The notes under the pieces: model-generated | Told to the model about the DNA's origin: nothing | What the model saw: only the letters and a program-made list of their open reading frames with translations | The model's database searches: none | Made by a program: the position numbers and the translations under genes | Assembly (NCBI RefSeq): GCF_026210795.1 | Contig: NC_089445.1 | Span: forward strand, 2,852,001 to 2,916,000 | Reading direction: 5' to 3' | Length of the DNA stretch: 64,000 nt | DNA from: Rhizophagus irregularis | Taxonomy: Eukaryota > Glomeromycota > Glomeromycetes > Glomerales > Glomeraceae | Part shown: positions 2,571 to 63,857 of the stretch, in pieces | How positions within the stretch are numbered: position 1 is the stretch's first letter | Layout: each line of letters opens with the position of its first letter

Positions 2571-3080
2571 TATAAAAATGATTTATAATTGAGTTTTGAA
2601 TTTAGTATTATCAATCGGACTTTAAACTTAAAAATTAAACAGTATTAACAAAAATTCTTGTGAATTTTTTAATAATTGTGATTTTACATCAGTGAGTTTT
2701 TGGGTAGTACATATTAGCAGATACTAGTATTGTTTGATGCTTTAAAGTGTAGAAAAACTTACTCTATCACACGTCAAATAAATAAAAATTGGCTGATTTT
2801 AGCTATATTTGTCCGATTTGTAACTTTTTACAGCTGTATTACCAATTCTTAACCACATTTTTCAGTTTTTTCACTATACAAAAAAATTGTATATACATTA
2901 TGAAATATATATTTTTATAAAAAATTATATTGTAATATTGAATTAAAATTTAAAAAATATTTTATTAAGCAATATTAAATAAAAAACTAATCTTAAATAA
3001 TTAAATTTTAAACGAAATACATTAAGAATATAAATTTACTTGTAATTTAATGTAATACGCATAATTATAAAAAATTAATA
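2571..3080. other. AT-rich spacer
   Basis: I see no gene, RNA or clear repeat between the two tandem-repeat fields. Confidence 0.5.
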
Positions 3081-3084
3081 ACTC

Positions 3085-4130
3085 CACAAATATTAACTGT
3101 GCCTTCATTAAAATAAATATTCAAGTAGATTCTAAGCTGCTGAACAATTTTTAATTAATAAAAGAAGTCGATTTACTTTGGCTAAAGTGCTTAAAATACG
3201 CTCTGAAGTAACAAAATGGAAAAAATAAAATTCGTAAATGAGTACCGTTGTGAAAATCGTGAATAACTCATCAAGTATTAACTGTACCTTCGTAAAAATT
3301 AATATCCAAGTAGATTTTGACCTGCCGAACAACTATCAATTAATAAAAGAAGTCGATTTACTTTGACTAAAGTGCTCAAAATACGCTCTGAAGTGACAAA
3401 ACGGAAAAAAATAAAATTCGTAAATGAGTACTGTTGTGAAAATCGTGAATAACTCATCAAGTATTAACTGTACCTTCGTAAAAATTAATATCCAAGTAGA
3501 TTTTGACATGCTAAACAACTTTCAATTAATAAAAGAAGTCGATTTACTTTGACTAAAGTTCTCAAAATACGCTCTGAAGTGACAAAACGGAAAAAAATAA
3601 AATTCGTAAATGAGTACCATTGTGAAAATCGTGAATAACTCATCAAGTATTAACTGTACCTTCGTGAAAATTAATATTCAAGTAGATTTTGACATGCTAA
3701 ACAACTTTCAATTAATATAAGAAGTTGGTTTACTATGGATAAAGTGCTCAAAATACGCTCTGAAGTGACAAAATGAAAAAAATAAAAGTCGTGAATGAGT
3801 ACTGTTGTGAAAATTGTAAATAACTCATCAAGTATTAACTGTACCTTCGTGAAAATTAATATTCAAGTAGATTTTAACCTGCCGAACAACTTACAATTAA
3901 CATAAGAAGTTGATTTACTTTGGCTAAAGATCTCAAAATACGCTCTGAAGGTAAAAAAATTTGTAACTTAATACTACTGTATAATATAAAAAATGTAAAT
4001 AATTCCAAAAATATTAACTGTACTTTTATGATCTTAACAGTTTTAAACTTACTAAACTACTTTTAATTAAAAGAATAAGATTTACTTCAGCCAAAATGCT
4101 CAAACCATACTTTGAAATATATGTAAAAAA
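3085..4130. repeat. About 186-bp satellite-like tandem repeat
   Basis: The segment gaagtcgatttactttg and its variants recur at about 3164, 3349, 3535, 3721 and 3906, a period of 185-186 bp. Surrounding segments such as attaactgtaccttcgt and aatacgctctgaagt repeat in step. A sixth, strongly diverged unit follows to about 4130. The minus-strand open frames across it are by-products of the repeat and not genes. Confidence 0.9.
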
Positions 4131-4454: not shown

Positions 4455-4580
4455 TAATTATAACTGAAATAAAAAAAAAAATCTAAGTTAATAAATAAAT
4501 ATTAAACCGTAATACATAATCACATGTTATATATTAAAATCGAAAAATCCTATTACAAATAACCAAAAATCGGCAATTTC

Positions 4581-5492
4581 AGTAGGGCAAACTTGGGGGT
4601 TCTGGGACAGCGGCTATCACATAGGTCTAACCATAATTTAGTGTACCCCCAGACCACCTAGCCTTGATTTCTGATATGATAACACTATACCTGTTTTTCT
4701 ATCCCCAGACCACCTAACCTTGATTCCCGATATGTTATTACTTGATAGCTAAAAAAGAACCCCCAAGCGTTGTAGATAAGATTAACATCATTTATTCCTA
4801 GGCATTATTACCACGCATGAATCCATTCCAGGGTATCATAATTTTATGCTATATCAGATTGCCTTTATAAGTGCTAAAGGTATGAAGGACACGAAGTGTC
4901 TGTAATACTGATAGCACGATTCAGCAATCCATTGTGGCATACTATTTTTATGATACTCTAAAATGGATTCATTCGATAATTTAAGCCATTCATGCTCTAA
5001 CCAAAAATTTTTAACAGGAAGGCAACTAGACATATTGTAAAGCTTTTCCTGCTATACGAAAAAATCTGGGACAGCGAAGTCTAACCAAAAATCTAACCCA
5101 GGTCTAACCAAAAATGTATAGCAGGAAGGCAACTAGATATGTTTTAAAGCTTTTCCTCCTATACGAAAAAATCTGGGACAGCGAAGTCTAACCAAAAATC
5201 CGACCCAGGTCTAACCAAAAAATGTATAGCAGGAAGGTAACTAGATATATTGTAAAGCTTTCCTTGCAATACGAAAAAATCTGGGACAACAGGTCTAACC
5301 AAAAGTCTAACCAAAAATCCGTCCGAGGTCTAACCAAAAAATATACAGCAGGAAGACAACTAGACATATTGTAAAGCTTCCCCTGCAATACGAAAAAATC
5401 TGGGACAATAAAGTCTAACCAAAATTTAACCCTAATCATAAATTGCTCTGATTCTTTGACGAAGCCTATTTTCATACCGATTTTGATAGTAA
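4581..5492 (+). repeat. Left terminal inverted repeat of the Polinton (912 bp)
   Basis: Its reverse complement matches 15449-16361 almost throughout. One length difference was seen: a run of six A at about 5392 against seven T at 15543. It contains two copies of a 35-bp module around agaccacctaRccttgatt (about 4645 and 4701). It also contains four tandem units of 104-121 bp (5018-5430) rich in ggtctaaccaaaaa. The inner end overlaps the last 20 codons of the small Cys-rich gene. Confidence 0.93.
5018..5430. repeat. Subterminal tandem repeats within the left TIR
   Basis: Four units each start near ggaaggcaactagacatatt (about 5018, 5122, 5228 and 5349), pass through gtaaagctttYcctgc and cgaaaaaatctgggaca, and end in one or more gtctaaccaaaaa blocks. 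Mirror copies lie in the right TIR. Repeated subterminal motifs of this kind often bind transposition or replication proteins. That role is inferred. Confidence 0.8.
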
Positions 5493-5668
5493 CTCCCAAT
5501 ATGAGATTGACATCGACCACTAGATGAACCTGTAGGTTTACCACATACAGCACAAGGAAAGCGTGATTTTGTCTTCCAATGAATGCGACAACCTTCTGGC
5601 CTCACACAAGGACGACCACAAGGCTTTCCTGTGTTATGTAAATATTCACAAGTATATTCTCCAATCAT
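5432..5668 (-). CDS. Small Cys/His-rich putative zinc-binding protein (78 aa)
   Basis: Starts at ATG 5666-5668; codons further upstream on this strand are open but lie antisense to the divergent neighbour. The product has a Cys/His set C7, C17, C21, C27 and H30, then a CxxC pair at C39 and C42, then C53 and H56. This suggests two zinc sites. The C-terminus is basic (RYENRLRQRIRA). Small Cys-rich fingers with a GxxCGR-like motif occur in Polinton-like and large DNA virus genomes, but I do not assign a function. The last 20 codons lie inside the TIR, so the right TIR carries a headless copy of its tail. It is divergent from the 125-aa gene, with 52 bp between the two starts. Confidence 0.6.
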   Translation of the reverse strand: MIGEYTCEYLHNTGKPCGRPCVRPEGCRIHWKTKSRFPCAVCGKPTGSSSGRCQSHIGSYYQNRYENRLRQRIRAIYD

Positions 5669-5720
5669 TTTTATTAAGTATAAATAAGTTAAATTAAAAA
5701 AAACTTTACATGATATAAAA
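5669..5720. promoter_or_regulatory. Divergent intergenic promoter region
   Basis: A 52-bp A/T-rich gap separates the start codons of two divergently oriented genes. Both must be transcribed from here or from within the neighbouring gene. No canonical box is certain. This is inferred from gene layout. Confidence 0.4.
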
Positions 5721-6098
5721 ATGATGTCTACCCAAGCTATACCAGCTAAGCCAACATACCGTGAAATTGAATCAGCTCTAATTGCTGTAATTAAAGCAGG
5801 CATCCTTTACAAGAAACCAAAGGATGGTAAATTCATGTTATGTTACAAACAAAGGATAATCAAATTGCGTCAAGCAGAAGAACCAGAAAATTTTGTTCTT
5901 GAAACAGCACAATCTATTCTACCTAATGAGACAAAGTATCAGCAAATCTTGGAAAATTATAAGACCTGGTATAGCAGAGAGCCAAAACTTTTGTCTGCTA
6001 TTAATAAGCTATACAGGTTATACTATGAATTGGCAAAAGACTACTTCCTCACAGACTCCCAAGCAGATGATGAGGTAGAAGACTATCTTAATTCATAA
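5721..6098 (+). CDS. Hypothetical Polinton protein (125 aa)
   Basis: Opens with ATG-ATG at 5721 and encodes a mostly helical, soluble-looking protein with no membrane segment and an acidic end (DDEVEDYLNS). I recognise no domain. Its frame is open with a normal amino-acid mix, and it fills the space between the Cys-rich gene and the integrase. Its 3' end overlaps the convergent integrase gene by 11 bp, typical of the dense packing in this element. It could be a minor particle protein or DNA-binding accessory, but the sequence does not show which. Confidence 0.6.
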   Translation: MMSTQAIPAKPTYREIESALIAVIKAGILYKKPKDGKFMLCYKQRIIKLRQAEEPENFVLETAQSILPNETKYQQILENYKTWYSREPKLLSAINKLYRLYYELAKDYFLTDSQADDEVEDYLNS

Positions 6099-7197
6099 GT
6101 ACCCATTGTGGTGGAAGTTCTGTATCATCTGGTATAACCAAAAGTTCTTCCCTCACAAAGGATCTCTCTGATTCTTTACCATCATCATCAATAAGCCAGT
6201 ACAAAACTGGTTGATTTTTCTGTGTTAAAGACATATGGATATGATAAATCTTAGGTGACCAATTCATATCTCCTGCTCGACGTCTTCCACCTTCCAGATC
6301 ATTTGGTTCAAGTAAGTACCTTACACTTATATTAGGTGGTAGTTTCTCTTCTTCATACCCAACAGGTCCATCACGAGGATAAGAAGATCTGGAAGACACT
6401 CGTGATTTTTTTATAGCTATAGCAGGAGATATACCAAGTTGTTGGGTCACTGAGTTATTTATACTTTCTACAGCAATAGGTAAGTTTTTTACCCAGACTC
6501 GAGATCTCGTTTTACCTAAAGTTAGTAAGTCAGATGCATCTTGAGAGGGAAATAGTTTCTCAACCAAGGTACGATTATATCGCTCCACAATGCCAACAGT
6601 ACGCTTAGACTTGGCCTTTTGAATCTTTACACCATGGGAAGTCATCAGCTTTTCACACTCACCTTTAAACTCTGAACCCCTATCTGTAATCAATAATTTT
6701 GGCCAAGTAAGCGGACATGTTGTATCATCATATACCTTTTCAAAAGCCCGAGCAATAGTATGAGAAGTTAGGATTCCCTGTCGATCTTTAACACTGGTTG
6801 AACCTATAGGGACACTTTCTTTATACCTTGATGCTATATCAACTATATTGAGACAGAAAAGATAAGTCACATGTCCAACCTTGTCATATGGCATATACAA
6901 AATGTCAGCTTGATGAACTTCATTGGGAACTTGTATAGAACTAAAACTTACACGAGGGATAAATCGGGGACGAGGTTTGTGGATTTGATGTACTGCCTGT
7001 CTTTCAAGCCAATCCTCCACTTCATCCAAGGTGAAATCATATCCAGCATTTTGTGATGTCTGATACAATTTTTTGGCAGTCCTCTGATATCCAGATGGTT
7101 GGTAAAATATTCTGCATAAAGTCGAAGTCACCTCTACATTTCGTGCTTCATCAGAATCTATTGGAATAATAGGAATCAATGGGAGTTGAACAGGCAT
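6088..7197 (-). CDS. rve-family integrase (retroviral/Polinton type)
   Basis: About 369 aa from the first in-frame ATG at 7195-7197; the frame is open further upstream but only to a TTG. It contains the rve catalytic core: D98 in VHQADILYM, D172 in LLITDRGSEF and E205 in VGIVERYNRT, which form the DDE metal-binding triad. The C-terminal 100 residues, with GDMNWSPKIY and FVREELLVIP, look like the small beta-barrel tail of retroviral and Polinton integrases. It would insert the element's linear DNA, leaving the 6-bp duplication seen at the ends. Its start overlaps the divergent gag-like start by 19 bp, and its end overlaps the 125-aa gene by 11 bp. All three acidic residues are present, so it may be active. 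Confidence 0.92.
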   Translation of the reverse strand: MPVQLPLIPIIPIDSDEARNVEVTSTLCRIFYQPSGYQRTAKKLYQTSQNAGYDFTLDEVEDWLERQAVHQIHKPRPRFIPRVSFSSIQVPNEVHQADILYMPYDKVGHVTYLFCLNIVDIASRYKESVPIGSTSVKDRQGILTSHTIARAFEKVYDDTTCPLTWPKLLITDRGSEFKGECEKLMTSHGVKIQKAKSKRTVGIVERYNRTLVEKLFPSQDASDLLTLGKTRSRVWVKNLPIAVESINNSVTQQLGISPAIAIKKSRVSSRSSYPRDGPVGYEEEKLPPNISVRYLLEPNDLEGGRRRAGDMNWSPKIYHIHMSLTQKNQPVLYWLIDDDGKESERSFVREELLVIPDDTELPPQWVLMN

Positions 7198-9263
7198 ATC
7201 TTGATCTGCTAAATAGCAACTTTGCTTTACGTAAAGAGCTGATATTAGAGGAAACAAATAATATTTCCAATAAGGAGAAAATCCATAAACTCACAAAGGA
7301 GATAGAGGCATGTGAACGATATATCTTCTATCTTGAAAAAAATCTTGTTTCACGTGAGGATGAGATCGATCAGTTAAAGGCAGAGTGTCAGTCCACTTTA
7401 GTTGAACTTGGAAAGTATCGAGATCACTTAGAGTTAAAGGAAGAGGCACTTGTTGCCCAGGATGAACGTATTATTCAGCTTGAAGACACAGTAGATAAAC
7501 TCAAAAAACGCATTCAAGAATTATCTTTATGTAAAGGAAAGATAGAAATGGATGAAGATAATGAATTATTCAATCCTATTCTAAGAATACTAGACCGCCG
7601 ACGGGCAGTTGCAGATTGTGTGTCTGAGATTCGACTATTTTTTGATCGGAATAGGATTCCAATTCCACAAGACATAGATGATGTCTTTAATGCTACCACT
7701 CAAAGTCTTGATGAAATTATTCGTCAAGCTGCTCTAATGCAAGAAATTGGTGTAGACCAACTAAATCAGATAGAAGGATTGCAGACATTACTTGGAGAAT
7801 CTTTAGATCGTACAAATGCTCTTAATCAAGACTTAATAAGAGTACGTGATGATTTTACATATGAGACAAATGCTCGTAGACACTGGGAAACTGTTGCACA
7901 ACAGAATCAAGCACGTATTGCAGGAATACAAATAGCCAATCTAGGTATACGTTTTCTGAATAGACGTAAAGATGCACAACTGGCAAACCAGCAGAATCAG
8001 CTGGTAAATCAACAGAATCAGATAGCAAACCAACAGAATCAGATAGCTGAGCATAGAAGGAATGCACACAGGCTGATGTTACGCTATAATGCTGATACAG
8101 AACGTTGGAGAAGAAGGCATGCAGGTTGTATACGTCAGGCACAAAACTGGCAAAGACAATATAGGATTTCACAGACCCAAGTACAAGCACAGGCCCAAAA
8201 TATTTTAAATTTACAACAACAAATATTAGCGTTACAAAACAATCCTCCAAACATGGCTACAATACAAGATGTCATGCATACTATATCACCAGGTCTTGCA
8301 CAGTTACCATTTTATGATGGACAAGAGCCGCCAGACTCTTATTATCAAAAGCTTAGAGCTGTCAATGAAATGGCTCGTCCACTAGCTGTTGCTGTTTTTA
8401 ATGCTGCTATGAGGTGTAGTGTTATGAAAAATAAAATGTCTGGTAGATTTATTCCTGTTCCAGCAAATAATCCATATAATGCCAATGCTGCTATTAATAC
8501 AGAACCAGAGTTTCTAAACTGGCTGCAAGGAAAATATAGAGATGTGATGGTTGGAACAAATCAAGGTGCTATAATAGCACTCATGAATGAATCATTTTCT
8601 CCTATAGATACACCAGATACATATGCAAAAAGGATTCGATCATTAGCACAAGGACAAGTATATGCTGAAATTTTACCTTATCTATATAATCATTTGCCTG
8701 ATGTTTTAGAAATGAGAGTTAGAATTGCTGCTCCTGCTGATCTTGATGCTTTCTTTAATGAGTTACGTAATAAATGGTATGAAAGTGGAGGGCGAAAAAA
8801 TCCAACCACTATAGTAGAACAACCACAGAATAGAACTGCATTAGAAAAGCTTGCAGATATAGCAGTACGTCTTGGCTATACTGGTGACATAACAAATCCT
8901 GTAGCAATACATACTTTCATTGAGAGTGATCTTACCAGAAAGTTAGGTGGACAAACACAACATCTAAGAAAAGATCACTTCGGAACTGGTCAGGTTAAAA
9001 AGGTGACAAAGACAACCAAATCTTCTCCTAAACGTCATTGCTCAAACTGTGGTAGAACAGGTCATTCCAAAAACAAGTGTTCACGGAGTAGACGTACTAA
9101 GAAAGTTAACAATACTCACATAGTTGACTATGAAGAATCTGAAAGTGATGAGGAAACTGATGAAGAAACTGAGGAAGAGTTAACTGAAGAAGAAGAGGAG
9201 GAGGATGAACCTCAGAATTGCTTTAGTGTAAAAAAAAAACTCATCAACGTGGAATTTCGGTAA
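7179..9263 (+). CDS. Gag-like protein with coiled coil, capsid-like region and CCHC knuckle
   Basis: 694 aa from ATG 7179. In order: a charged coiled coil (about 20-125), a Gln/Asn stretch built from a seven-residue ANQQNQ(L/I) repeat (264-290), a helical region resembling Ty3-type Gag capsid (about 375-535, with LPFYDGQEP, FLNWLQGKYRD and SLAQGQVYAEILPYL), a basic linker, one retroviral zinc knuckle CSNCGRTGHSKNKC (621-634, CX2CX4HX4C), then a Glu-rich acidic tail. Gag proteins assemble particles and bind nucleic acid. Its presence next to PolB and an integrase is unusual. It ends at TAA 9261-9263, in frame with the open frame of the protease. An A10 run (9230-9239) lies just before the stop. 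The capsid assignment rests on pattern, not on an alignment. Confidence 0.8.
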   Translation: MGVEQAYLDLLNSNFALRKELILEETNNISNKEKIHKLTKEIEACERYIFYLEKNLVSREDEIDQLKAECQSTLVELGKYRDHLELKEEALVAQDERIIQLEDTVDKLKKRIQELSLCKGKIEMDEDNELFNPILRILDRRRAVADCVSEIRLFFDRNRIPIPQDIDDVFNATTQSLDEIIRQAALMQEIGVDQLNQIEGLQTLLGESLDRTNALNQDLIRVRDDFTYETNARRHWETVAQQNQARIAGIQIANLGIRFLNRRKDAQLANQQNQLVNQQNQIANQQNQIAEHRRNAHRLMLRYNADTERWRRRHAGCIRQAQNWQRQYRISQTQVQAQAQNILNLQQQILALQNNPPNMATIQDVMHTISPGLAQLPFYDGQEPPDSYYQKLRAVNEMARPLAVAVFNAAMRCSVMKNKMSGRFIPVPANNPYNANAAINTEPEFLNWLQGKYRDVMVGTNQGAIIALMNESFSPIDTPDTYAKRIRSLAQGQVYAEILPYLYNHLPDVLEMRVRIAAPADLDAFFNELRNKWYESGGRKNPTTIVEQPQNRTALEKLADIAVRLGYTGDITNPVAIHTFIESDLTRKLGGQTQHLRKDHFGTGQVKKVTKTTKSSPKRHCSNCGRTGHSKNKCSRSRRTKKVNNTHIVDYEESESDEETDEETEEELTEEEEEEDEPQNCFSVKKKLINVEFR

Positions 9264-10187
9264 AAAACAAAGGGAAAAAAATCCCGTACTTCCAAATCTA
9301 AAAGAGAACCTATTCTCAAGAAAACTGATGAAGTCTTTCATGCAGCACTGAAGTCTATAATTGCTTCACTAGCAGTACAATGTCCTAAAGAAATCCTCCT
9401 ACAGATTAATGCTTATACCAATCAAGCATATGAGAATCTGAAAGACCCGCTTTTAAACCATTTTGTTAGTGACTATCCAGTTAGTGAAAGAAAGAAACTC
9501 TGGGATGTTCTTTCAGCAAATATGCAAGACATTTTATCTCCTCTAGCTCATGCTGTAAATACAGCAACTCCACTATTACCAACTCCTCCTGCAGATGTAC
9601 CATCTGAAGTAGAACAGAAAGAAGACAAAACACTGAACCATGCAATACGTGCCTATCAGCAGAAAAACCTATACTGGCCAAGACCCTTAGAAATCAACTT
9701 TCTCCAGTTAGATGATCCCAATGATGTAGCGACCATTTCCTGTAAAATCAAAAATGTATGCATACCCTATGCTATGATCGATACAGGGTCTGACTCTTCA
9801 GTAATCTCTGAGAATGTAGCTAAGCATCTAGGTCTCAAAATAGATCGAAAGAATATACATGCACTTAATGGTGTAGCTGGATCAACCAAAACTCTTGGCA
9901 CTATCAATGAAATTCCCATAACTATCGGTGAAGGTACAAATACAGTCACTATATCAGACGAATTCTCTGTTATACCTACCGAGAAGGATCGAAATGGTAA
10001 GGACAAATCATTGCTAATACTTGGTACACAGTGGCAGTATCGTGCAGGTTGGGAACCTGTAGTAAAGGGTGAGTTCAAAGCAAATGTAAATGGACAGGTT
10101 GTCTCAATTCCTCTCTCTGTACATAAGGCACAACGTAATGTTTTTGCAGTAAATAGCCAGCCAGCCTATAAAAAAAAAACTAGCTGA
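9264..10187 (+). CDS. Retropepsin-like aspartyl protease, in frame with gag after one stop
   Basis: The frame is open from the codon after the gag stop to TGA 10185-10187 (307 codons). The first ATG is at 9522 and would give 221 aa. Counted from that ATG, the active site is YAMIDTGSDSSVIS with the catalytic Asp at 87 in DTGS, and the psi-loop partner is LLILGTQW (165-172). This is the single-lobe, dimeric protease class of retroelements, which cleaves Gag polyproteins. The 86 codons before the ATG are protein-like and helical, so the natural product is probably a Gag-Pro fusion made by readthrough, by slippage, or before a recent mutation. The frame then stops at a second A10 run (10170-10179), after which a zinc-finger frame follows. 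Confidence 0.82.
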   Translation, partial: KTKGKKSRTSKSKREPILKKTDEVFHAALKSIIASLAVQCPKEILLQINAYTNQAYENLKDPLLNHFVSDYPVSERKKLWDVLSANMQDILSPLAHAVNTATPLLPTPPADVPSEVEQKEDKTLNHAIRAYQQKNLYWPRPLEINFLQLDDPNDVATISCKIKNVCIPYAMIDTGSDSSVISENVAKHLGLKIDRKNIHALNGVAGSTKTLGTINEIPITIGEGTNTVTISDEFSVIPTEKDRNGKDKSLLILGTQWQYRAGWEPVVKGEFKANVNGQVVSIPLSVHKAQRNVFAVNSQPAYKKKTS

Positions 10188-10431
10188 TCGTACCTGTCAG
10201 CATTGTGGGAAGGAATTCCCATATCCTTCTAATCTTAAACAACATTTTTTACGAAAAAATCCATGTGCAGTAAAAAAGTCCCATGCAAAGCCCATGCAAA
10301 GCCCATGTGCAGTTAAAATTTCCCATGCAAAGTCCATGCAAAGTCTATGCACAGTAAAAAAATCCCATGCGCAGTCCACACAAAATTTGAGTAAAGCAAC
10401 AGTACCCATTCGTCTATTTCTTGATGAATAA
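10180..10431 (+). CDS. C2HC finger plus 14-residue repeats, frame-shifted tail of Gag-Pro
   Basis: No start codon of its own is evident. The frame runs straight on from the protease if the A10 run at 10170-10179 is read one base shorter. It opens with a finger of the form CX2CX12HX6C (CQHCGKEF, then H, then KNPC), the same spacing as the finger at the PolB N-terminus. This is followed by three tandem 14-residue repeats of the type CAVKKSHAKPMQSP and a short end, VPIRLFLDE. The underlying DNA is a repeat of about 42 bp. It stops seven bases before the convergent neighbour. It may be a nucleic-acid-binding domain attached to the protease product. Confidence in the frame is good; how it is expressed is unknown. 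Confidence 0.6.
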   Translation, partial: LADRTCQHCGKEFPYPSNLKQHFLRKNPCAVKKSHAKPMQSPCAVKISHAKSMQSLCTVKKSHAQSTQNLSKATVPIRLFLDE

Positions 10432-10437
10432 TGGGAA

Positions 10438-10875
10438 CTACGATATGGAAGCAAGTTTTTTTTCTATTTCTCGTACTTGCTTCTTCATGGTATCAATTTC
10501 ATGTCGTATCTGATGATTTGTCTTGATCAATTTCTCATGTTCTTTAGTAAGGTTCTGCATGAATCGGCCAAAAGTAACCTTATTATATTCAAGCAAGTGC
10601 TTCTGAAGTATGGAAACCTCTTCACTAATCATGTCTTGTGTCATTCTGTTTCTTGGCATATATGTCTGTTTAACAGTTAGTCTCTGACGTGCTAATTTTT
10701 TCTGGTATCTTTCTACTTCATGTTTCAAAAATAACTCTACCATGGAATTTACTCCACTGGCATCAGACACAGATAGTGGACTACGCTTCCTTGTTGTGAG
10801 ACGAATCCATGCCTCATGTATTACAGAAGCTGGTAACATAACTAGTAGCTCAGTGTATACCTGGTTGAAAGACAT
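10438..10875 (-). CDS. Hypothetical coiled-coil protein (145 aa)
   Basis: Starts at ATG 10873-10875. The N-terminal 45 residues are mixed. The rest is strongly helical and charged, with a coiled-coil C-terminus (MKKQVREIEKKLASI). No known domain is recognised. It lies between the convergent Gag-Pro-finger block and the 89-aa gene, on the same strand as PolB, so it could share a transcript with PolB. A role as a structural or scaffolding protein is possible but not shown. Confidence 0.62.
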   Translation of the reverse strand: MSFNQVYTELLVMLPASVIHEAWIRLTTRKRSPLSVSDASGVNSMVELFLKHEVERYQKKLARQRLTVKQTYMPRNRMTQDMISEEVSILQKHLLEYNKVTFGRFMQNLTKEHEKLIKTNHQIRHEIDTMKKQVREIEKKLASIS

Positions 10876-10968
10876 TAGTTCTTATTACGAAAAAAAAAAT
10901 TTGGAATTCCAAAGAATTCTGAAGAATTCCATAGAATATCTTATCATATGACACCTCCCAGAAATCTG

Positions 10969-11238
10969 TTAGATGTCATGTGCTAATGATTGTCTTTCTC
11001 TTAGTATTGAATAATAAAATGCCTCTACTAAGTCATAAAAGGCATTTGGAATGTTTGGTACAGGGCATTTCATAAATGCATCAATACTAGTCTTAGAACT
11101 TATGACCATTTTAGCTAATGCCTTTATACTTTTTATTGCATCCTCTACATCTTTAAAGAGACCTCTCTGAATTGTGATATGTATAAGGTCATCGATATAT
11201 TCTTCACTATGTATATCATAGATTGGATCGTCTTCCAT
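10969..11238 (-). CDS. Hypothetical small acidic protein (89 aa)
   Basis: Starts at ATG 11236-11238 with an acidic MEDDPIYDIHSEEYIDDL, followed by predicted helices and no cysteine pattern or membrane segment. No family is recognised. It sits 72 bp downstream of the PolB stop and reads in the same direction. The 93 bp between it and the coiled-coil gene hold no other gene. Its conservation in other copies of the element would show whether it is real. Confidence 0.55.
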   Translation of the reverse strand: MEDDPIYDIHSEEYIDDLIHITIQRGLFKDVEDAIKSIKALAKMVISSKTSIDAFMKCPVPNIPNAFYDLVEAFYYSILRERQSLAHDI

Positions 11239-11310
11239 TTTAACTATCGGGAAAAAATATAATTTATTATTAATATATGCCTAAGTATCACTAAACTATT
11301 CTATATCATT

Positions 11311-14300
11311 CTAATATTTCTCTGGTAATCTGGTCCCTATAGCTATTTTTTCTGCTGCCTCATGACTTGTACCACGCTCAAGAAGTTTCTTATATACTTG
11401 AATACGCCAGTGTCCGAATGGTAAGGAGGATATACCATCTGACCAAATCCAGCGTTTTGTATCGATTGGGGATAATGCCTTCTTCTCTGACTCGATTAGT
11501 GATATTACATGATTTTTTGTACGCATTCCCACATTCTTGGCATAAAAGACACCATTTTCAAACAGACAGTCCCGATATACTTGAGTCATAGGATCGAAGA
11601 TTTCATCTTTTTCTACTGTATCATCTAATAAAGTTCCACCTAAAGATGGGAAATATGTGTCCTTAGCCATATCACTCATACCCTTCTTGCTTACTCCTTT
11701 ATGTTTGGACTTTGTAGACTTGTCTGCCAAGACATAGTGGTAGGATTTTGCACGGATGTGGTAGGATTCAGTAATTACATTTCCAGGAGTCTCATCCTTG
11801 AAAAGCCCGATTGTCTTGGTATCATTAAGGTCAAAGAGATCTGGACGCTCTGCCATATCCTTGTAAATATCTTCTGTCTCGACATGGTAGATAAAGGAGT
11901 CAGTATCCATATATCCAAGTCGTACTTTGTTTCCATACTTCTCTTTGACAAAACCATACCAGAAGCGGTACATTAAGAGTTTACTGAGACCAAGGACAGA
12001 TGCACCGATAATGATAGGTTTATTGAGAATAACACTAGCCTTACCCATATGTGCTCCTACAAGTATGTTGCCAAGTTGACGAGCATACTTGAAGGAGGGC
12101 TTGCGAACTTTCTTAAGGAATTTCTTTTCATCATTTTCATTGATCATTCTCATAAGCTTGACATCCTGATACTTACGTACATTCTCCATAGTCTTGCCAT
12201 AGACTGAGTTATTCATGAGTTTAAAGAAGTCTTTCTCAAATGAATTCTTGGATTGTTGACGTAAATTTGTATTTTTTGCAATATAAGGAGCTAACCAGTT
12301 ATCTTGATCAAATGATAGGACTTGTGTAATCTCATCTACAACCATGCCTAACTTAATGTAATACTGGAGCTCTTGGTAATGTATAACATAATCTTCATGT
12401 TTACTAAGATGTGGAACTAACTTCTCTGTTTCAGGAAATCGCCCTCCATCTAAGTTATCAACAAGTTTGGTTATATATGGGCTTAACCTATCCTTTTTTA
12501 CAGCTATACTATCAACTGCAGGAGGTAAATCTTGTAGATAATCATGAGTTTTAAGGGGGAAGTGCGCTTTGATATTTAGGAAGTAACCACAGGCAGCATC
12601 TGGTTTTGTATTAAGAATTACATTAAGTATCTGCTTCTGCTTATCTAGATTCTGTTTGAAATATTCTGGAGATGCTTCCCATCTGTAGTTACCAATAGGC
12701 AAGTACTGGCTCATAGCCCATCCATACAGATTGTTTGCATCTACATAGGAAATCCAGGTAGTAGGTTTAGAGGGATTAAAGGAGTCACCCATCTTAGGGT
12801 TATTGGCTTTTAAGAAACGGTGTCCTGCCATAGCTATTCCTCCACGTTTAGCCTTTTCAGTAAAATCATGCATGGTCATGTCAGTGAATAGCTCTATTTT
12901 AACTCCAGTTATCTTAAGCATGCCATCCCAAGAAAGTGCAGGAGCAGAGACATAATGACTTGGGTCAAGTCCATAATGATGCATCGCTGTCTGTCTAAAT
13001 TTTGTCCAGACATCTGCTAGGAGAAGAACATCAGTCTTAAGGTAAAGGTCATGATACTCGCCCAAGTTTTTGCAGCCAAATTCCTTCCAAACTTTTTGTG
13101 CATGTTTGTAATTATCCTGAGTGATCTTTCCTCCAAGAGTACTATGAAAGTCATGAATAGATGGGAGTTCTGTCTCCTTGAAACGATCATGTGAATCAAT
13201 ATATTCATAAGGATAAACCCCCTTACGTGTGATTAAGTCAATATGTTCAGACGAGAAGTTGTTGAAGTGTCGCTTTGTAAGGGGTTTATCTGTCCCTAAA
13301 TTCTTTGCAAGGTTTGCAAGACTGGAAGCCATGAACTGCATGCTATCAATGTACTTGAATTGCCCTACTTTCATGGATTTGTAACGTTCAAATGTCTCTG
13401 CAATAACTTTGATTTGATGTGCTCCAATTGATCGTCCAACAGATTCACAAACTAAATGGGAGTCATAGCCACGGAAGTTATGAAATACTACAGGAATTGG
13501 AGTCTTCCATGCTTCGATTTGAAGCTTAAGATTGCATGCATTATGAGCAGCCCCACGAAACTTACCTGTGATGTGGCAGTGATCCCAAACTTTTTTGTCT
13601 TGCACGCCCTGATTGAAATTCCCATTACATATCCAACAACTAACTGCTTTAGTGAATTCCTTTTTAGCTTCCTCTGTTACAATACGTTCTACTTTTACTT
13701 CTAAAACATCATTAATCCTTCTTAATTCTTTATCAAGTCTGCTGACAAACTCTTCTGTTGCATTTGGTCCTCGGTATAAGAATGGCCCCCATGTCTCATC
13801 AGTTTCAATCCAGTGGACCATATAGCAGAAGCTGTTAGCCTTTTGCTCCATAATCTTATGCATATTTCCACCATAGTTTTCATTACACTTTCTGTTATCA
13901 GCCTCAAAGTCTGCAATAATTACACATGGGGCATACATTGTTCGGTTAAAATTCTTAAACTCCTCAAAATCATTCTTACCTTTAACTGGTAACTCAACTC
14001 TTTGTGGTGACTTACCTAATCCAAAACACCATTCCTGATGATTAGTTAAAGATTTAGACGATGGAAAGCTTTGGAAGCACCGATTGCAAAGATGCTTCTT
14101 TCCCTTGTGGGATGTATCTTTGTATATTAAAGCATCAGGATTCTTAATCCAAAGGAAGTGATTCTTCTGACCATACTTTCCTTCATCTGATTTTGTAATA
14201 TCTGTAAGGGCCATAAGGTGAATGATATGTTGACGGTTGTAATTCTTACTTGCAATAACAGGTTTTGGAATACCAGTTTTCTCTTCCCATTCCCATACAT

Positions 14301-15378
14301 TAATGGAGATCTCAGGATTGAGGTCCTCAATCTTGCTAAATATGCGTGGACAAACAGGAGTGGGCATGGGAATTGCATTGAGATTGACTTGTTCCAAGTA
14401 TGGCTTAAATTTTTCTGCCCGAAAGATTCGCTCAAGTTTTTGTGTATGACCATCTTTATATGCAAAGTAAGTACCTAAAGCCCCTTGCAAACATTTTTCA
14501 GAAGGCAAGCCTGTGTCTGGATCTATGAGATCTTTGTTATCAGGATTGATAGTGCACTTCTTATTTGCAAGTGCCTTAGGTGTAAGAATGTATGAGCCTC
14601 CTTTTGCTCGGCGGTAAGTATACGTCTCAATAGTTAATATATCTATACTAACAATTTTCCAACCAGACCCTCCTTTCATAAATTTGACAATTTTATCCGT
14701 GATATCTACTGCTGATTTTGTTAAATGATCATCTATATCATTCTTTAAAAGAAGTACACGCATGACTCCTCTATGATAAACTTGCTTATATGTTCCACTA
14801 TTATCTGTATATGTAGCCAATATAGTGATAGCTGATTTGATTTGCCCCTTTTCTTCAAGTTCCCTCTCAAGAATTTCTGTTATTTTCTGGCGGGTATCAG
14901 CTATTATACTTGGAAAATATGGTATATCTCTAACATTTGGTTTAAGATCAGCTTGCCATACTGTCTTATGTTTTAGAGATTTATGTGGACGTGCAGGATC
15001 ATGACCTCTTTTTACAAATTGAATATCACACCATCTTCCTCTATAATCTCCTTGCATATAAGCAAACCATTCATTATCTGTTTGTGGAACTCTTCTTTTT
15101 CGTGGAGTATATTGATTGTAATCACCAGGTCCTGCTAACCATTTTGCTAGTTCATCAATTGTTAAGTTAGGAGTTTTCTCTGTATGAGCTGGGATAACTT
15201 CAGGTGTGGGATCCTGGAGTTGCTCCGGTTGTGGTTGCAATTGTACAATCTCAGGTGTGGGATCCTGAGGGTTAGCTGTAGACTTGCATAGAAACTTTCT
15301 ATTTTGATGCCCACGAAGCTTTTGTGGAGTTGCAAAAGTCTTTCCACATCTATCACAAGTTCGATTGCTTGTTGCCAT
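11311..15378 (-). CDS. polB: Protein-primed family B DNA polymerase (pPolB)
   Basis: 1355 aa, within the upper range of Polinton polymerases. N-terminal C2HC finger (C8, C11, H24, C31); second finger (C431, C434, H447, C451). The 3'-5' exonuclease motifs are present: IIADFEAD (D490, E492), HNFRGYDSH (N634, D639) and YLKTDVLLLADV (Y779, D783). Between Exo I and Exo II lies a Cys-His module (C581, C584, DHCH 599-602, H612, C615) resembling endonuclease VII-type HNH folds. Polymerase motif A is SYVDANNLYGW (D880), motif B KLMNNSVYG (K1053-G1061), motif C YMDTDSF (D1158, D1160). All catalytic positions look intact. It would replicate the linear element from the TIR ends using a protein primer. 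It starts 70 bp inside the right TIR boundary. Confidence 0.95.
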   Translation of the reverse strand: MATSNRTCDRCGKTFATPQKLRGHQNRKFLCKSTANPQDPTPEIVQLQPQPEQLQDPTPEVIPAHTEKTPNLTIDELAKWLAGPGDYNQYTPRKRRVPQTDNEWFAYMQGDYRGRWCDIQFVKRGHDPARPHKSLKHKTVWQADLKPNVRDIPYFPSIIADTRQKITEILERELEEKGQIKSAITILATYTDNSGTYKQVYHRGVMRVLLLKNDIDDHLTKSAVDITDKIVKFMKGGSGWKIVSIDILTIETYTYRRAKGGSYILTPKALANKKCTINPDNKDLIDPDTGLPSEKCLQGALGTYFAYKDGHTQKLERIFRAEKFKPYLEQVNLNAIPMPTPVCPRIFSKIEDLNPEISINVWEWEEKTGIPKPVIASKNYNRQHIIHLMALTDITKSDEGKYGQKNHFLWIKNPDALIYKDTSHKGKKHLCNRCFQSFPSSKSLTNHQEWCFGLGKSPQRVELPVKGKNDFEEFKNFNRTMYAPCVIIADFEADNRKCNENYGGNMHKIMEQKANSFCYMVHWIETDETWGPFLYRGPNATEEFVSRLDKELRRINDVLEVKVERIVTEEAKKEFTKAVSCWICNGNFNQGVQDKKVWDHCHITGKFRGAAHNACNLKLQIEAWKTPIPVVFHNFRGYDSHLVCESVGRSIGAHQIKVIAETFERYKSMKVGQFKYIDSMQFMASSLANLAKNLGTDKPLTKRHFNNFSSEHIDLITRKGVYPYEYIDSHDRFKETELPSIHDFHSTLGGKITQDNYKHAQKVWKEFGCKNLGEYHDLYLKTDVLLLADVWTKFRQTAMHHYGLDPSHYVSAPALSWDGMLKITGVKIELFTDMTMHDFTEKAKRGGIAMAGHRFLKANNPKMGDSFNPSKPTTWISYVDANNLYGWAMSQYLPIGNYRWEASPEYFKQNLDKQKQILNVILNTKPDAACGYFLNIKAHFPLKTHDYLQDLPPAVDSIAVKKDRLSPYITKLVDNLDGGRFPETEKLVPHLSKHEDYVIHYQELQYYIKLGMVVDEITQVLSFDQDNWLAPYIAKNTNLRQQSKNSFEKDFFKLMNNSVYGKTMENVRKYQDVKLMRMINENDEKKFLKKVRKPSFKYARQLGNILVGAHMGKASVILNKPIIIGASVLGLSKLLMYRFWYGFVKEKYGNKVRLGYMDTDSFIYHVETEDIYKDMAERPDLFDLNDTKTIGLFKDETPGNVITESYHIRAKSYHYVLADKSTKSKHKGVSKKGMSDMAKDTYFPSLGGTLLDDTVEKDEIFDPMTQVYRDCLFENGVFYAKNVGMRTKNHVISLIESEKKALSPIDTKRWIWSDGISSLPFGHWRIQVYKKLLERGTSHEAAEKIAIGTRLPEKY

Positions 15379-15448
15379 ACTGGTTGTGTACTAATAACCT
15401 AAAAATTTTTTTCTTCAATTAATAAATTCTAAAATGTTTCCCATCTTA

Positions 15449-16361
15449 TTACTATCAAAATCGGTATGAAAATAGGCTTCGTCAAAGAATCAGAGCAATT
15501 TATGATTAGGGTTAAATTTTGGTTAGACTTTATTGTCCCAGATTTTTTTCGTATTGCAGGGGAAGCTTTACAATATGTCTAGTTGTCTTCCTGCTGTATA
15601 TTTTTTGGTTAGACCTCGGACGGATTTTTGGTTAGACTTTTGGTTAGACCTGTTGTCCCAGATTTTTTCGTATTGCAAGGAAAGCTTTACAATATATCTA
15701 GTTACCTTCCTGCTATACATTTTTTGGTTAGACCTGGGTCGGATTTTTGGTTAGACTTCGCTGTCCCAGATTTTTTCGTATAGGAGGAAAAGCTTTAAAA
15801 CATATCTAGTTGCCTTCCTGCTATACATTTTTGGTTAGACCTGGGTTAGATTTTTGGTTAGACTTCGCTGTCCCAGATTTTTTCGTATAGCAGGAAAAGC
15901 TTTACAATATGTCTAGTTGCCTTCCTGTTAAAAATTTTTGGTTAGAGCATGAATGGCTTAAATTATCGAATGAATCCATTTTAGAGTATCATAAAAATAG
16001 TATGCCACAATGGATTGCTGAATCGTGCTATCAGTATTACAGACACTTCGTGTCCTTCATACCTTTAGCACTTATAAAGGCAATCTGATATAGCATAAAA
16101 TTATGATACCCTGGAATGGATTCATGCGTGGTAATAATGCCTAGGAATAAATGATGTTAATCTTATCTACAACGCTTGGGGGTTCTTTTTTAGCTATCAA
16201 GTAATAACATATCGGGAATCAAGGTTAGGTGGTCTGGGGATAGAAAAACAGGTATAGTGTTATCATATCAGAAATCAAGGCTAGGTGGTCTGGGGGTACA
16301 CTAAATTATGGTTAGACCTATGTGATAGCCGCTGTCCCAGAACCCCCAAGTTTGCCCTACT
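15449..16361 (-). repeat. Right terminal inverted repeat of the Polinton (913 bp)
   Basis: Mirror copy of 4581-5492 with the one-base run-length difference noted for the left copy. It ends in ...GCCCTACT, directly followed by the AATTTC duplication. It carries the mirrored tandem units and the tail of the small Cys-rich frame without its start. Confidence 0.93.
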
Positions 16362-16367
16362 AATTTC

Positions 16368-23375: not shown

Positions 23376-24296
23376 ATGATGGACAATAAACAACATAATT
23401 TTTCTCCTCATCCTTCTCTCCTTATTAAATTTGGTCAAATTAATGTTAATGGTTTATGTTCTCCAGTTAGACAACAACATTTACTTAATTTCTTTCTCCA
23501 CTCTTCCTTTAGTGTTTTATCTTTAAATGATACCCGCCTTTTCTTTTCAAATGCTAAGTTTATCTTCAAAAATGAACATTCCCAGCATCATTTTAGGTCC
23601 TATTGGATCTGTTCGACTTCTTTTCGTCCCCATGATGGTGTTGGTATATTGCTTTGTAATCCTCTTCATAAACATGTTCAAACAATTGATTCTTGGAATG
23701 GTCGTCTTCTTAAATTGGATCTATTTTTTCATCAAACAAAAATTTCTATTATTTCTTTATATTACCCTCCTTCTGGTTCTACTCATCAGTCCATTTGTAA
23801 TGATCTTATTGCCAAACTTCTTTCTTGGCTTGATCATGCCCGTGCTAATAACTATTTTGTAGTTATCCTTGGCAACTTCAATGTTGATGAAATCGCTCAC
23901 TCCAACTATTCACCCAGTCATTTTAAACTCCTTCGTTTACTTTCTTCTCGATTTTTTACCGATCATCAAGCTTATTCTTCTATTGAGGGTCCTGATCCTA
24001 CTTTTTATTACGCCAATGGATCTTCTAGACTGGATTATATCTGGTCTTCACCTGGCTTTCCTACTCCTGGTTTTTTTTCACAAGTGGTTGCTTGCCCCAA
24101 TCTCCTTGATCGCCCTTTTACTGATCACAAAGTTCTTACAACTGTTTTTGATTTTAGCTCTTGCCTGGCTATTTTGGCCAAGTCTCGTCTTAAACAAAAA
24201 AAGAAATGCGCACTATCTTCTCTTATACCTCCACTTCAGTTGAACAATGGAATAATTTCACCGCTGAAGTGGATGATTCTCTTAGAGTGTATTTAA
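23376..24296 (+). pseudogene. LINE AP-like endonuclease domain, degraded
   Basis: An endonuclease/exonuclease/phosphatase fold is recognisable from FGQINVNGL, LSLNDTRLF, VVILGNFNVD, SSRLDYIWSS and FTDHKVL. In active LINE endonucleases the second motif has Glu and the third has Asp (GDFN). Here these are Asp (LND) and Asn (GNFN), so catalysis is probably lost. The domain leads into the broken RT region. Confidence 0.8.
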
Positions 24297-41217: not shown

Positions 41218-43173
41218 CTAATAATCTGTAATTTAGATATTAATAAATTATTAAATTAAAGTGTATATGTTAAAAAACATTTCTTACCGTTATTGTTAAG
41301 TACATTGTAATTTGTATTATTATTCTCAATATCAAATCCAGTCAAATAATCTAAAAATAAAAATTTTTCATGAAAATGACAGGGATATAGTTATACTGTA
41401 TAAAAAGAAATAGCACTTACCATTATTTCCGTCTTCAAATAATTTGATCCTTTTAATACTTTTATCTAAAGTAAATATGAAAGTATGATTTAGAAAAAGT
41501 TATTTAATCAATTATGAAAAAATAAAATCTTTATCATCATACCATTTTCATGATTATTTTCAATCAAATCACAGTTACTATATATTCTTTTATCTTTTTT
41601 ATTAAAAAAAAACATGTGTGAGTTAGAATTATTTTAACATATTAAATTATTATAATAAATAAATATTATTAAAATAAATTACCATTAATAGAAGGGTAAT
41701 GTCCTAATTTACATATAATAAATAAAAAAAGTTAATATTTGTTTAATTTAACTTTATTTTTTTAATAAAAATAATTTTAACTTACTAAATTCTAAAATCA
41801 TTCTTTGATTACTTAATGTAGATTTTACTAATCCTATCAATTCACTTAGTAATCTACTTTTATAGATAGCACCTGGATTATATGTTGTTACAGGTCCAAT
41901 ATTTGGTGAATAAATAATTTTAGTTGGATTAAAACAACTTATTTTAGATTCATTGAATATAATATTTTCAACAATTTTAAATATATCACTAGCTGTTGGT
42001 CTTTTATTTGGATCAGAATGCCAACAATTTTGCATTAATTCAATATAACCTTCAGGTGCATTTGTGACAATTGGAGGACGAAAACCATTACATATTTCAA
42101 TAATAAGATTTATATCATGATTTTGATCCCAAAAAGGTTTTCTACCATTCATTAATTCCCACATAATCATACCGAGACTATATATATCAGATGCTTTAAT
42201 ATATTTTTGACCTTGAAAAACCTCTGGAGCAACATAAGGAATGACACCATAAATCTCACTATTATCAATCGCAGATTGGTTTATTCCTAAATCACTTATT
42301 ATAGCAAGATAATCTATAAAAATATTTCCACTATGATAATCTTTATGAATAATATTCGCATAATGTATATTTTTTAAGCCACTTATAATTTGAAGTAATT
42401 TAATTAATTTATCATGCCAACTAATATTAAAAAAATCATTAGTTATATAATTTGAAAGATTTCCTGATTTATAATATTTTGTAATTATCATATAATTTTG
42501 GGTGATGGGATTTTGAGTCATACCAAAATATTTGGTAGTATAATTATGATTATCAAAATCATTATAATCACCATGATTTCTATGTTGTAAAATAAGATTA
42601 TAAAATACTTTGAGCTAAAAAAAAAATGAAAAAGTTAAAAATATATAAATAATTTTATATGTACGTACAAATATCAAAAAATGGTATTGATCATACCTCA
42701 CTTAATTGTTTAGAATCAATATTTTTAGAATCATTAAGTTCTTTAAGAACAACAATCATTTCACCATCACGCCTATAATTTTGTTGTTTATCATTCCATC
42801 TTGATATTGGACCATCCATCCAAGTGGCTTTATAAATTTTACTAAAACCTCCTTCAGAAATAAGTTTAATATTTATGAATCTATCAAATTGAACAAATTC
42901 CATTTTTCCAGCTTTTTTATAACGATTAGTCAATGTATATCTTATAAAATCATCAATAACTTTATTTCCACTTAGTGTAACAGATTTTGCTTTAAAACAT
43001 AAATGACAGATTTGATGAATTTCATTAAAATTCTTTCTTTTTCGATTACATTCTCTACATTTCTTCAACCTTGATTTTGTTGACGTCTTTTGAGGTTGAT
43101 TATTATTAATTAAAGATGTATTATCATCAGTTATTAAAAAATTAATTTTTAATTTATAATTTGTTTGTTCCAT
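41218..43173 (-). CDS. Protein kinase-like protein with Cys-pair N-terminus, seven exons
   Basis: Exons (minus strand): 43173-42697, 42614-41786, 41703-41683, 41593-41543, 41465-41421, 41350-41288 and 41225-41218, all on GT-AG sites and in one frame, ending Asn-Asp-Tyr-stop. The N-terminus has CRECNRKRK and CHLC (putative zinc site). The kinase fold shows SEGGFSKIYKATW (Gly loop), VVLKEL (Lys), IIHKDYHSGNIFI (catalytic loop; Lys replaces Arg of HRD), ISDLGI (DLG for DFG) and PYVAPEV. Tyrosine-kinase-like proteins of this style are greatly expanded in Rhizophagus. The 21-63 bp 3' exons give an acidic, Asn-rich tail (KRIKLFEDGNN). A broken paralogue lies 1.8 kb upstream. The substrate is unknown. 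Confidence 0.82.
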
Positions 43174-62363: not shown

Positions 62364-63857
62364 TTAATTTTTCATAACTTGAAAAACTTCATAATCATCA
62401 ATTTCAAAATTTTCTGAATCATGAATTTTAACAAAATAATTTACTAATTTACAACTTTTTTGAAATATATGTAAATCTCCACGGCCAAATCCTTGATTTT
62501 TAGTATGATCACTATCTGAAATTGCATAGTCATAGTTTTTAACTCTGCTTAATATAATTGTAGTTGGTTTTAAATTATTTAAATAAAATGAAAAAATAAA
62601 ACTCCTATCAGTATTAAAATATTTGCTAGTTGCGCACCATCCTATTGGATTATATCCTCCAATAATCTTGTCCGAATTTTTTAATTTAATTATAACAATT
62701 GTAGCTCCTTTATTATTACACTTTAATTTAAAATCATCTACACCAAATCCATCTTTACTTCCACATAAAAGTAAATTATATTTATATTGGCCATTTTCAA
62801 GTACATTTGGCAATTGTTCTTGTCCACCATCAATCCAGTATGAAATAAGGTTAAAATGAGTTCCCTTAAAAATGGATGAACCAAATATATACTGAGATTT
62901 TCTAGGTGGAAGAACTTTTGTGGCCAATTTGCAATCTGGAACAATATAATATAAATTTAAATCTTCTTCAAGTTCTTTAGGAAGCAATTTACCTAAAGGA
63001 CGGACTTTATAATAATATTCTTGTGGTGTCATTTGAAAAAATCGAATATGCTGAATAAATGTTGATAGAGTTTCCTTTAAAGTCTTATATTCATTAATAC
63101 TCCAAGTTGTCATATCAGAATTAAGAGTAGAATTCTTTGCAATGCCCCATTTTATTAAGTTCTCCCAAATTACAATTTCTTTCATATTTAGATTATCACG
63201 TTGAATAATTGAAAGTAAAGCATCATCATCTAGTCCCCAAAACTCATTAGAACCAATCAACAATTTTGGTTCTTGACTCATAATTTTATTACACAATTCT
63301 TCAAGCTTTGAAAAAACTCCTTTATGACGAAAAATAGTAATGAAGAGTTTAATACCATTTTGTTTAATCCAATCATTATTCGAATGATTCAAGTCAATGA
63401 TATGTTGCTGAAGGTGTTCAACAAGCTCATAAAGGTTCATCTCATCTGCCGCAATTAGTAATTCAATAAAATTATTTTCTACATTAGTTGCATCTAACGC
63501 GATTGTTCCAGTATAAATATATCTAAATAAAAAAAATAAAAATTACTTTTAAAATATGTTATAGGTTCAAAATTAATTAATCTATTATTAATATACTTAC
63601 TTCAATATTATTCGGAATATAATTCCGGATACATTTGGTTTCTTAAAGATGTAAAAGTCACCTTCTTTTTTAGCCCAATCTGAAGAAAATGCGGTGCGAA
63701 AGTAATTTGACCTAGCACGCAAAATAACTGAATGTGCTTTAAATACTTCCATTTTGGACTCTTCCCCAACTTGTATTTTTACATTATAATCATCAGCCTT
63801 ATCATAAAGATTGCTAATGTCCCTTAAAAGTGTGTCAGATAAAGTTTGGCAAGACAT
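62364..63857 (-). CDS. BTB/POZ-BACK-TLDc protein (471 aa), two exons
   Basis: Exon 1 63857-63601 from ATG 63855-63857; exon 2 63522-62364 after an intron GTAAGT...TTTAG, one frame. BTB/POZ at about residues 20-127 (DYNVKIQVGEE, FKAHSVILRARSNYFRTAF, IYTGTIALD). A BACK-like helical region follows (about 130-240: LDDDALLSIIQRDNL, IWENLIKWGIA). The C-terminus is a TLDc domain (about 300-471: FGSSIFKG, LLLCGSKDGF, NPIGWCATSKYFNTDRSFIF, YEVFQVMKN). BTB proteins often act as Cullin-3 adaptors, and TLDc domains are linked to oxidative-stress and V-ATPase functions in other eukaryotes. The partner here is unknown. Glomeromycotan genomes hold large families of this arrangement. Confidence 0.93.

Follow-up and report, generated by a model that had tools for sequence, protein, structure and literature searches.

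A Polinton-class DNA element of Rhizophagus irregularis carrying a Gag-like and retropepsin-like protease module

DNA viruses related to Polintons are characterized by their jelly-roll capsids, and Gag is regarded as a hallmark of reverse-transcribing elements. A locus of Rhizophagus irregularis, at which both worlds appear to meet within one transposon, raises the question of what a self-synthesizing DNA element does with a Gag. The window analyzed here is a stretch of 64,000 nucleotides (contig NC_089445.1, positions 2,852,001 to 2,916,000), in which positions 4581-16361 form one unit bounded by terminal inverted repeats (TIRs). An initial annotation had described this unit as holding long TIRs, a 6-bp duplication, a family-B DNA polymerase (PolB), an rve integrase, a Gag-like CCHC protein and a DTGS protease, all of which are present in the window, and had read it as a hybrid whose Gag shell would package or shield DNA. 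The first half of that reading stood, as the Polinton-class element with its Gag-retropepsin module was fixed across copies and families; the packing of DNA is a part that we infer. The analysis established that Polinton-type replication and integration are combined with a Gag-protease module and that this combination persists in many copies and in diverged families.

Seven open reading frames (ORFs) of interest were located inside the element, encoding the integrase, a 694-amino-acid protein, the protease, the polymerase and three small proteins of 125, 145 and 89 amino acids. The domain content was examined by Pfam at E-values up to 1 in eight ORFs. The integrase (6088-7257, minus strand) matched PF00665 with an E-value of 9e-7 and 29.5 bits, just below the curated cut-off of 32.6; its ORF as listed starts with TTG, and an ATG lies 20 codons downstream. 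The 694-amino-acid Gag-like CCHC protein (7179-9263, plus strand) comprises a coiled coil, a helical domain resembling the Gag capsid domain (CA), a CCHC knuckle and an acidic tail. It is followed by the Gag-Pro junction (9264-9521, plus strand), partly removed as an intron in annotated relatives, and by a retropepsin-like aspartic protease of 221 amino acids with the motif DTGS (9522-10187, plus strand; PF13650, E 3e-7, above the cut-off). A family-B DNA polymerase of 1355 amino acids, bearing a zinc finger and an endonuclease VII domain (PF02945, E 2.9e-6), occupies 11311-15378 on the minus strand.

Neither a reverse transcriptase nor an RNase H domain was detected in the eight ORFs at the above threshold. 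The initial annotation had also found none of the usual Polinton capsid set, and the same outcome was obtained here, as no domain of an A32/FtsK ATPase, an adenovirus-type protease or a capsid of nucleocytoplasmic large DNA viruses (NCLDV) appeared in these ORFs, although a strongly diverged capsid could escape Pfam. In a tblastn search with three A32 proteins, no match within the element was better than E 1.4, and the control, a related element termed type 3 below, was recovered. A genome scan with the capsid family PF04451 was uninformative since the controls were equally silent. As the jelly-roll capsid, the FtsK/A32 ATPase and the cysteine protease were undetected, we call the element Polinton-class and not a typical Polinton.

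The polymerase itself gave Pfam matches to the endonuclease VII and zinc-finger families and to no polymerase family. Among 7992 scored candidates, 3606 were related to its core at E up to 1e-3. Many of the best 120 of these carry a precomputed PF03175 (DNA_pol_B_2), and the relative P0157 matched PF03175 with an E-value of 5.8e-15; some molluscan proteins of about 40% identity were also among the relatives listed. The homology to PF03175-bearing proteins suggests that the window polymerase is a family-B enzyme of the DNA_pol_B_2 type. The relatives of Gag and PolB at 99-100% identity include proteins of Rhizophagus irregularis DAOM 197198. Neither PolB nor the integrase gave a useful match when solved structures were searched by sequence, and scans of IMG/VR with the window PolB alone and with Gag alone found no relative.

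The two TIR arms (4581-5398 and 15544-16361) are 818 nt long and 100% complementary, and are continued with a small offset by a further 100 nt at 100% (5393-5492 and 15449-15548), giving a total of about 912 bp per end. The left TIR (4581-5492) contains a 107/119-bp tandem array in its inner part, the right TIR spans 15449-16361, and the termini of the element start with AGTAGGGC. No long direct repeat pair was found at the element ends, which are inverted repeats. The target-site duplication AATTTC lies at 4575-4580 on the left and at 16362-16367 on the right. The duplication of Polinton/Maverick elements is 6 bp long and that of Ty3 is 5 bp. The perfect 6-bp duplication given in the initial annotation holds for the window copy but not as a family trait, since exact 5-bp duplications flank seven of the ten other copies and none was found in three; a copy of a second family, described below, also has 6 bp. 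A tandem array of 186-bp units (4.7 copies, 3077-3959) was observed immediately to the left of the element.

The genome scanned here comprised 146.7 Mb in 32 contigs, and the counts from genome searches are lower bounds. Fourteen copies of the window family were paired by eye from end matches, and ten were fetched; the other four were the outer copy of a nested pair, one 2.8-kb unit with an internal deletion and two copies containing large inserts. All seven ORFs were present in identical order in the ten fetched copies, with Gag at full length without stops in six, interrupted by stops in two and split in two. The window-family PolB was found at 18 loci (at least 92% identity across more than 600 residues), and at all 18 Gag, protease and integrase lay no more than 20 kb away; within 10 kb the numbers were 15, 15 and 13, respectively. 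A nested retroelement insertion, against which the initial annotation had proposed a comparison of copies, was ruled out by this constancy of the block in 10/10 fetched copies and 18/18 polymerase loci. When the ten copies were compared with the window copy, pooled dN/dS values indicated the strongest purifying selection of the seven for the 125-amino-acid ORF (0.07), followed by PolB (0.25), and were the same for Gag and the integrase (0.35 each); the values for the 145-amino-acid ORF (0.53), the protease (0.69) and the 89-amino-acid ORF (0.77) were based on few changes. End matches at G000:C21:3105854-3129741 suggest a window-family copy nested in another, near its right inverted repeat, and at G000:C13:1653651-1656434 the inverted ends of the family enclose 2.8 kb, probably an internally deleted non-autonomous derivative.

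The CA-like helical domain covers approximately residues 355-540 of the 694-amino-acid protein. In the structure prediction proposed in the initial annotation, the model of this region resembles Gag CA folds, and all 50 listed rows of both of two fold searches were Gag or Gag-derived proteins. By sequence, with nine shared A1 rows dropped (P0090, P0094, P0100, P0106-P0111), the window CA matched family 2 with E 0.0012 and a Ty3-like Gag with E 0.033; this valid comparison was much weaker than the one before it. As the sequence similarity is marginal, the assignment of the capsid domain in the window family rests on the predicted fold and the position. Family 2, type 3 and type 4 show a better sequence link, and the CA of family 2 and type 3 matched the Ty3-like Gag with E 1.9e-8. 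The profile comparison of A1 with A2 (E 2e-92) and the first CA comparison were discarded because the alignments had rows in common. A4 gave only weak matches against solved structures, including nucleocapsid knuckles and PEG10 at E 0.53. The CCHC knuckle was read in the letters, its Pfam E-value being only 0.12 in the window protein and 0.0039 in the relative P0046. The gene models of two annotated relatives (P0001 and P0005) fuse Gag and protease across an intron. Read-through of the Gag stop codon was considered since the two window ORFs share a frame, and was set aside because the frame after the stop differs in eight of the ten other copies and the two annotated models skip this stretch.

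Three further kinds of element with an integrase, a Gag and a protease were identified in the same genome, two of which (types 3 and 4) have other polymerases as well as a packaging ATPase of the A32 type. All three have integrases homologous to that of the window element, and homologues of its protease are likewise present in each. A diverged relative of the window element on C14 (L031/L032) retains the order of integrase, Gag, protease and PolB; inverted repeats around it were not found in the fetched stretch. Family 2 (L029/L030) is represented by a unit of 12,304 bp at C3:4553467-4565770, with 438-bp TIRs at 100% and TTGTAT on both flanks. It encodes PolB, an integrase above the PF00665 cut-off, a Gag of 741 amino acids, a protease and an F-box-like protein (L029:2519-3031, PF12937, E 1.5e-6). 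Near 14 full-length family-2 polymerase places, a Gag was listed at 9, a protease at 13 and an integrase at 13. A clear Retrotrans_gag gene (L030:2823-4049, E 1.4e-12) sits at the right-hand edge of the family-2 copy and lies almost entirely beyond the inverted repeat.

In type 3 (L033-L035, G000:C23:420000-445400), an integrase with an extra C-terminal part occurs together with a Gag, a protease, a PF00136-type PolB and an ATPase of the A32 type (E 7.3e-11); inverted-repeat ends were not found in the fetched stretch. Its polymerase is perhaps the same gene as the asfarvirus-like DNA polymerase reported from R. irregularis in passages of PMC5294986. Type 4 (L039, L036, L038, L042) includes a unit of 15,429 bp at C13:560147-575575 with TIRs of 469 bp at 98.9%. 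It encodes a chromodomain integrase, a protease with DTC instead of the usual DTG, a Gag, an A32 ATPase (E 1.2e-10), a Pox_D5 match (E 4e-7) and a polymerase matching PF03175 slightly below the cut-off (E 2.3e-5). No duplication was found at its ends, and a second type-4 copy yielded no inverted repeats. The integrase and gag ORFs of the window element lie head to head with overlapping 5' ends (7179-7257); family 2 shows the same arrangement, as does type 3 but with no overlap, and the gag of type 4 is head to head with the ATPase and not the integrase.

The distance between Gag and A32 was compared at 62 Gag places, drawn from 87 matches and sorted manually according to identity, after setting aside 17 fragments and 8 places, of which 6 resembled family 2 and 2 fell in no group. 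The window family contributed 19 places from separate matches at 85% identity or more, four short ones being excluded. An A32 was located no more than 6 kb from Gag at 14/19 type-3, 2/2 related and 15/19 type-4 places, and at 0/19 window-family and 0/22 family-2 places. The positive counts are lower bounds because 60 of 152 A32 matches entered the comparison. That Gag and A32 belong to one element in types 3 and 4 is judged from their closeness, except in one type-4 unit with known ends, the TIR-bounded unit of 15,429 bp, which encloses both. At least 15 further Gag-A32 pairs of the type-4 kind were observed in the genome.

Only one viral contig with a related polymerase was found (L037, IMGVR_UViG_3300028392_002905; one locus), which is probably of the adintovirus/Polinton kind. 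Its PolB shares 34% identity and the endonuclease VII domain with that of the window, and it also encodes an rve integrase and an A32 ATPase (E 5.6e-11). A 477-amino-acid protein of this contig is likely a jelly-roll capsid, judging from a weak Capsid_N match (E 0.028); this candidate had no match in a phage collection, and a sequence search of solved structures returned nothing useful. No Gag domain was detected in ten of its 12 listed ORFs that were scanned. L037 thus resembles the window element in polymerase and integrase and differs from it in having the ATPase and the likely jelly-roll capsid.

The element shares the TIRs, the rve integrase and the DNA_pol_B_2-kind polymerase in one self-synthesizing unit with Polinton/Maverick elements as portrayed in passages of PMC4028283, but a Gag and an aspartic protease stand where the capsid, cysteine protease and ATPase would be expected. 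According to the same passages, these three genes occur in most, not all, Polintons, and nine Polintons lacking the major capsid protein also lacked the protease and ATPase, so that capsid-lacking Polintons are already known. The joint absence of the usual morphogenesis genes is common to those and the window element, and these passages mention no replacement structural module such as the one found here. With Ty3-type LTR (long terminal repeat) retrotransposons the element shares the CCHC-knuckle Gag, the retropepsin, the DDE integrase and mostly 5-bp duplications, and it differs from them by its TIRs and DNA polymerase, reverse transcriptase and LTRs being undetected. A precedent for a Polinton-type polymerase with a foreign capsid gene is given by the bidnaviruses, in which, as outlined in part of PMC10175614, a Polinton-derived polymerase is joined to a parvovirus capsid gene; here the partner is a retroelement Gag. 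Maverick elements are among the most recently expanded transposons of R. irregularis, with numerous copies of low methylation, as stated in sections of PMC8647823, and are also mentioned in part of PMC11075540; neither gives their gene content there. Among the matches listed from the openly licensed PMC literature, a scope outside which preprints and most subscription journals fall, none described a Gag-bearing Polinton by title or abstract.

These results make it probable that the element is a Polinton-class DNA transposon with a structural module of the retroelement kind, working as follows. PolB would copy the linear element, probably by protein priming from the TIR ends. Gag would be produced either by itself or fused to Pro by splicing, and would assemble via its CA-like domain and coiled coil, with the CCHC knuckle binding nucleic acid and the retropepsin-like protease cutting Gag, and the integrase would insert the DNA with 5-6 bp duplications. 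In the related kinds, it is probably the A32-type ATPase that moves DNA into the shell. As the window family is without A32, having lost the ATPase or perhaps never had one, its Gag would more likely co-assemble on DNA or use the ATPase of a partner. The element may accordingly pack DNA, not RNA, in a Gag shell, a view drawn chiefly from the linked protease and from the A32 genes that neighbor homologous Gags in type 3 and type 4. The wider proposition, that these are undescribed glomeromycotan DNA virus-like elements without reverse transcriptase, packaging PolB-made double-stranded DNA in a retropepsin-matured Gag shell that is A32-filled in some lineages, and arising by capsid exchange between retroelements and Polintons or NCLDV, is one on which we are evenly divided. 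If true, it would show that capsid modules cross the border between Polinton-related DNA viruses and reverse-transcribing elements. The ability of a Gag shell to contain double-stranded DNA would then be open to direct testing, and many of the Gag-bearing elements occur in this single, widely studied mycorrhizal fungus.

Several observations weigh against this interpretation. The Gag particle, the transcripts and the packaged DNA are predictions from the gene content. For the predicted CA model, Foldseek E-values were 0.34 or worse, and middling Z-scores are easily reached by helical folds; removal of the shared rows leaves the sequence similarity of the window CA to other Gag CAs marginal. 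The window polymerase had no PF03175 match at E up to 1, most window-family copies have 5-bp and not 6-bp duplications, and no A32 accompanied Gag within 6 kb in the window family or family 2. In addition, the protease shows a dN/dS of 0.69, albeit on few changes, and reads DTC in type 4.

Capsid exchange is the simplest reading and may have run in either direction, by a gain of Gag by a Polinton or by a gain of DNA polymerases by a Gag-bearing retroelement. The second course, in which a retroelement with Gag and integrase lost its reverse transcriptase and took up DNA polymerases several times, would lead to the same working mechanism. It would explain why integrase, Gag and protease are common to four kinds with polymerases of different types, and we consider it possible but rather doubtful, as the integrases of the window element and of L037, a likely jelly-roll contig, are homologous (E 2.9e-9), A32 is common to L037 and types 3 and 4, and the ends are TIRs, not LTRs.

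A second alternative accepts selection on Gag-Pro and gives it the role of a nucleic-acid-binding scaffold for replication, integration-complex assembly or regulation, with no closed shell around DNA. The very long coiled coil before the CA-like domain, the divergence of CA and the failure to find a packaging ATPase in the window family would suit such a role. We nevertheless hold it to be unlikely, since the linked protease is of the kind found in particle-forming elements and A32-type ATPases adjoin homologous Gags in types 3 and 4.

Alternatively, the Gag particle could hold RNA or serve other elements such as LTR retroelements, with the transposon merely carrying or regulating it. CCHC knuckles typically bind RNA, and a Ty3-like Gag gene is found immediately beyond the family-2 copy; this explanation seems improbable, however, as the block stays with PolB and integrase at all 18 loci and the eight scanned ORFs contain no reverse transcriptase domain. 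Chance insertion of a retroelement Gag-Pro fragment into one Polinton copy is hardly credible, for although copies with later insertions do exist (e.g., C10 and C15, in which gag is split), one gene order prevails in all ten fetched copies and the 18 PolB loci, the same block recurs in diverged families, and Gag has a dN/dS of 0.35.

With the preferred Polinton-class element in mind, its three small ORFs can be placed as follows. The 125-amino-acid ORF (5721-6098, plus strand) encodes a helical protein with relatives in the C14 element and type 4, and its model was poor (mean pLDDT 61) with no usable fold match. The 145-amino-acid coiled-coil ORF (10438-10875, minus strand) matched the ORF adjoining the type-3 ATPase with E 2.1e-14, and the 89-amino-acid ORF (10969-11238, minus strand) occurred in all ten fetched copies. 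Elsewhere in the window, an Exo_endo_phos ORF (23376-24296), possibly from a LINE, a protein kinase (41754-42521) and a BACK-TLD protein (62364-63440) were observed.

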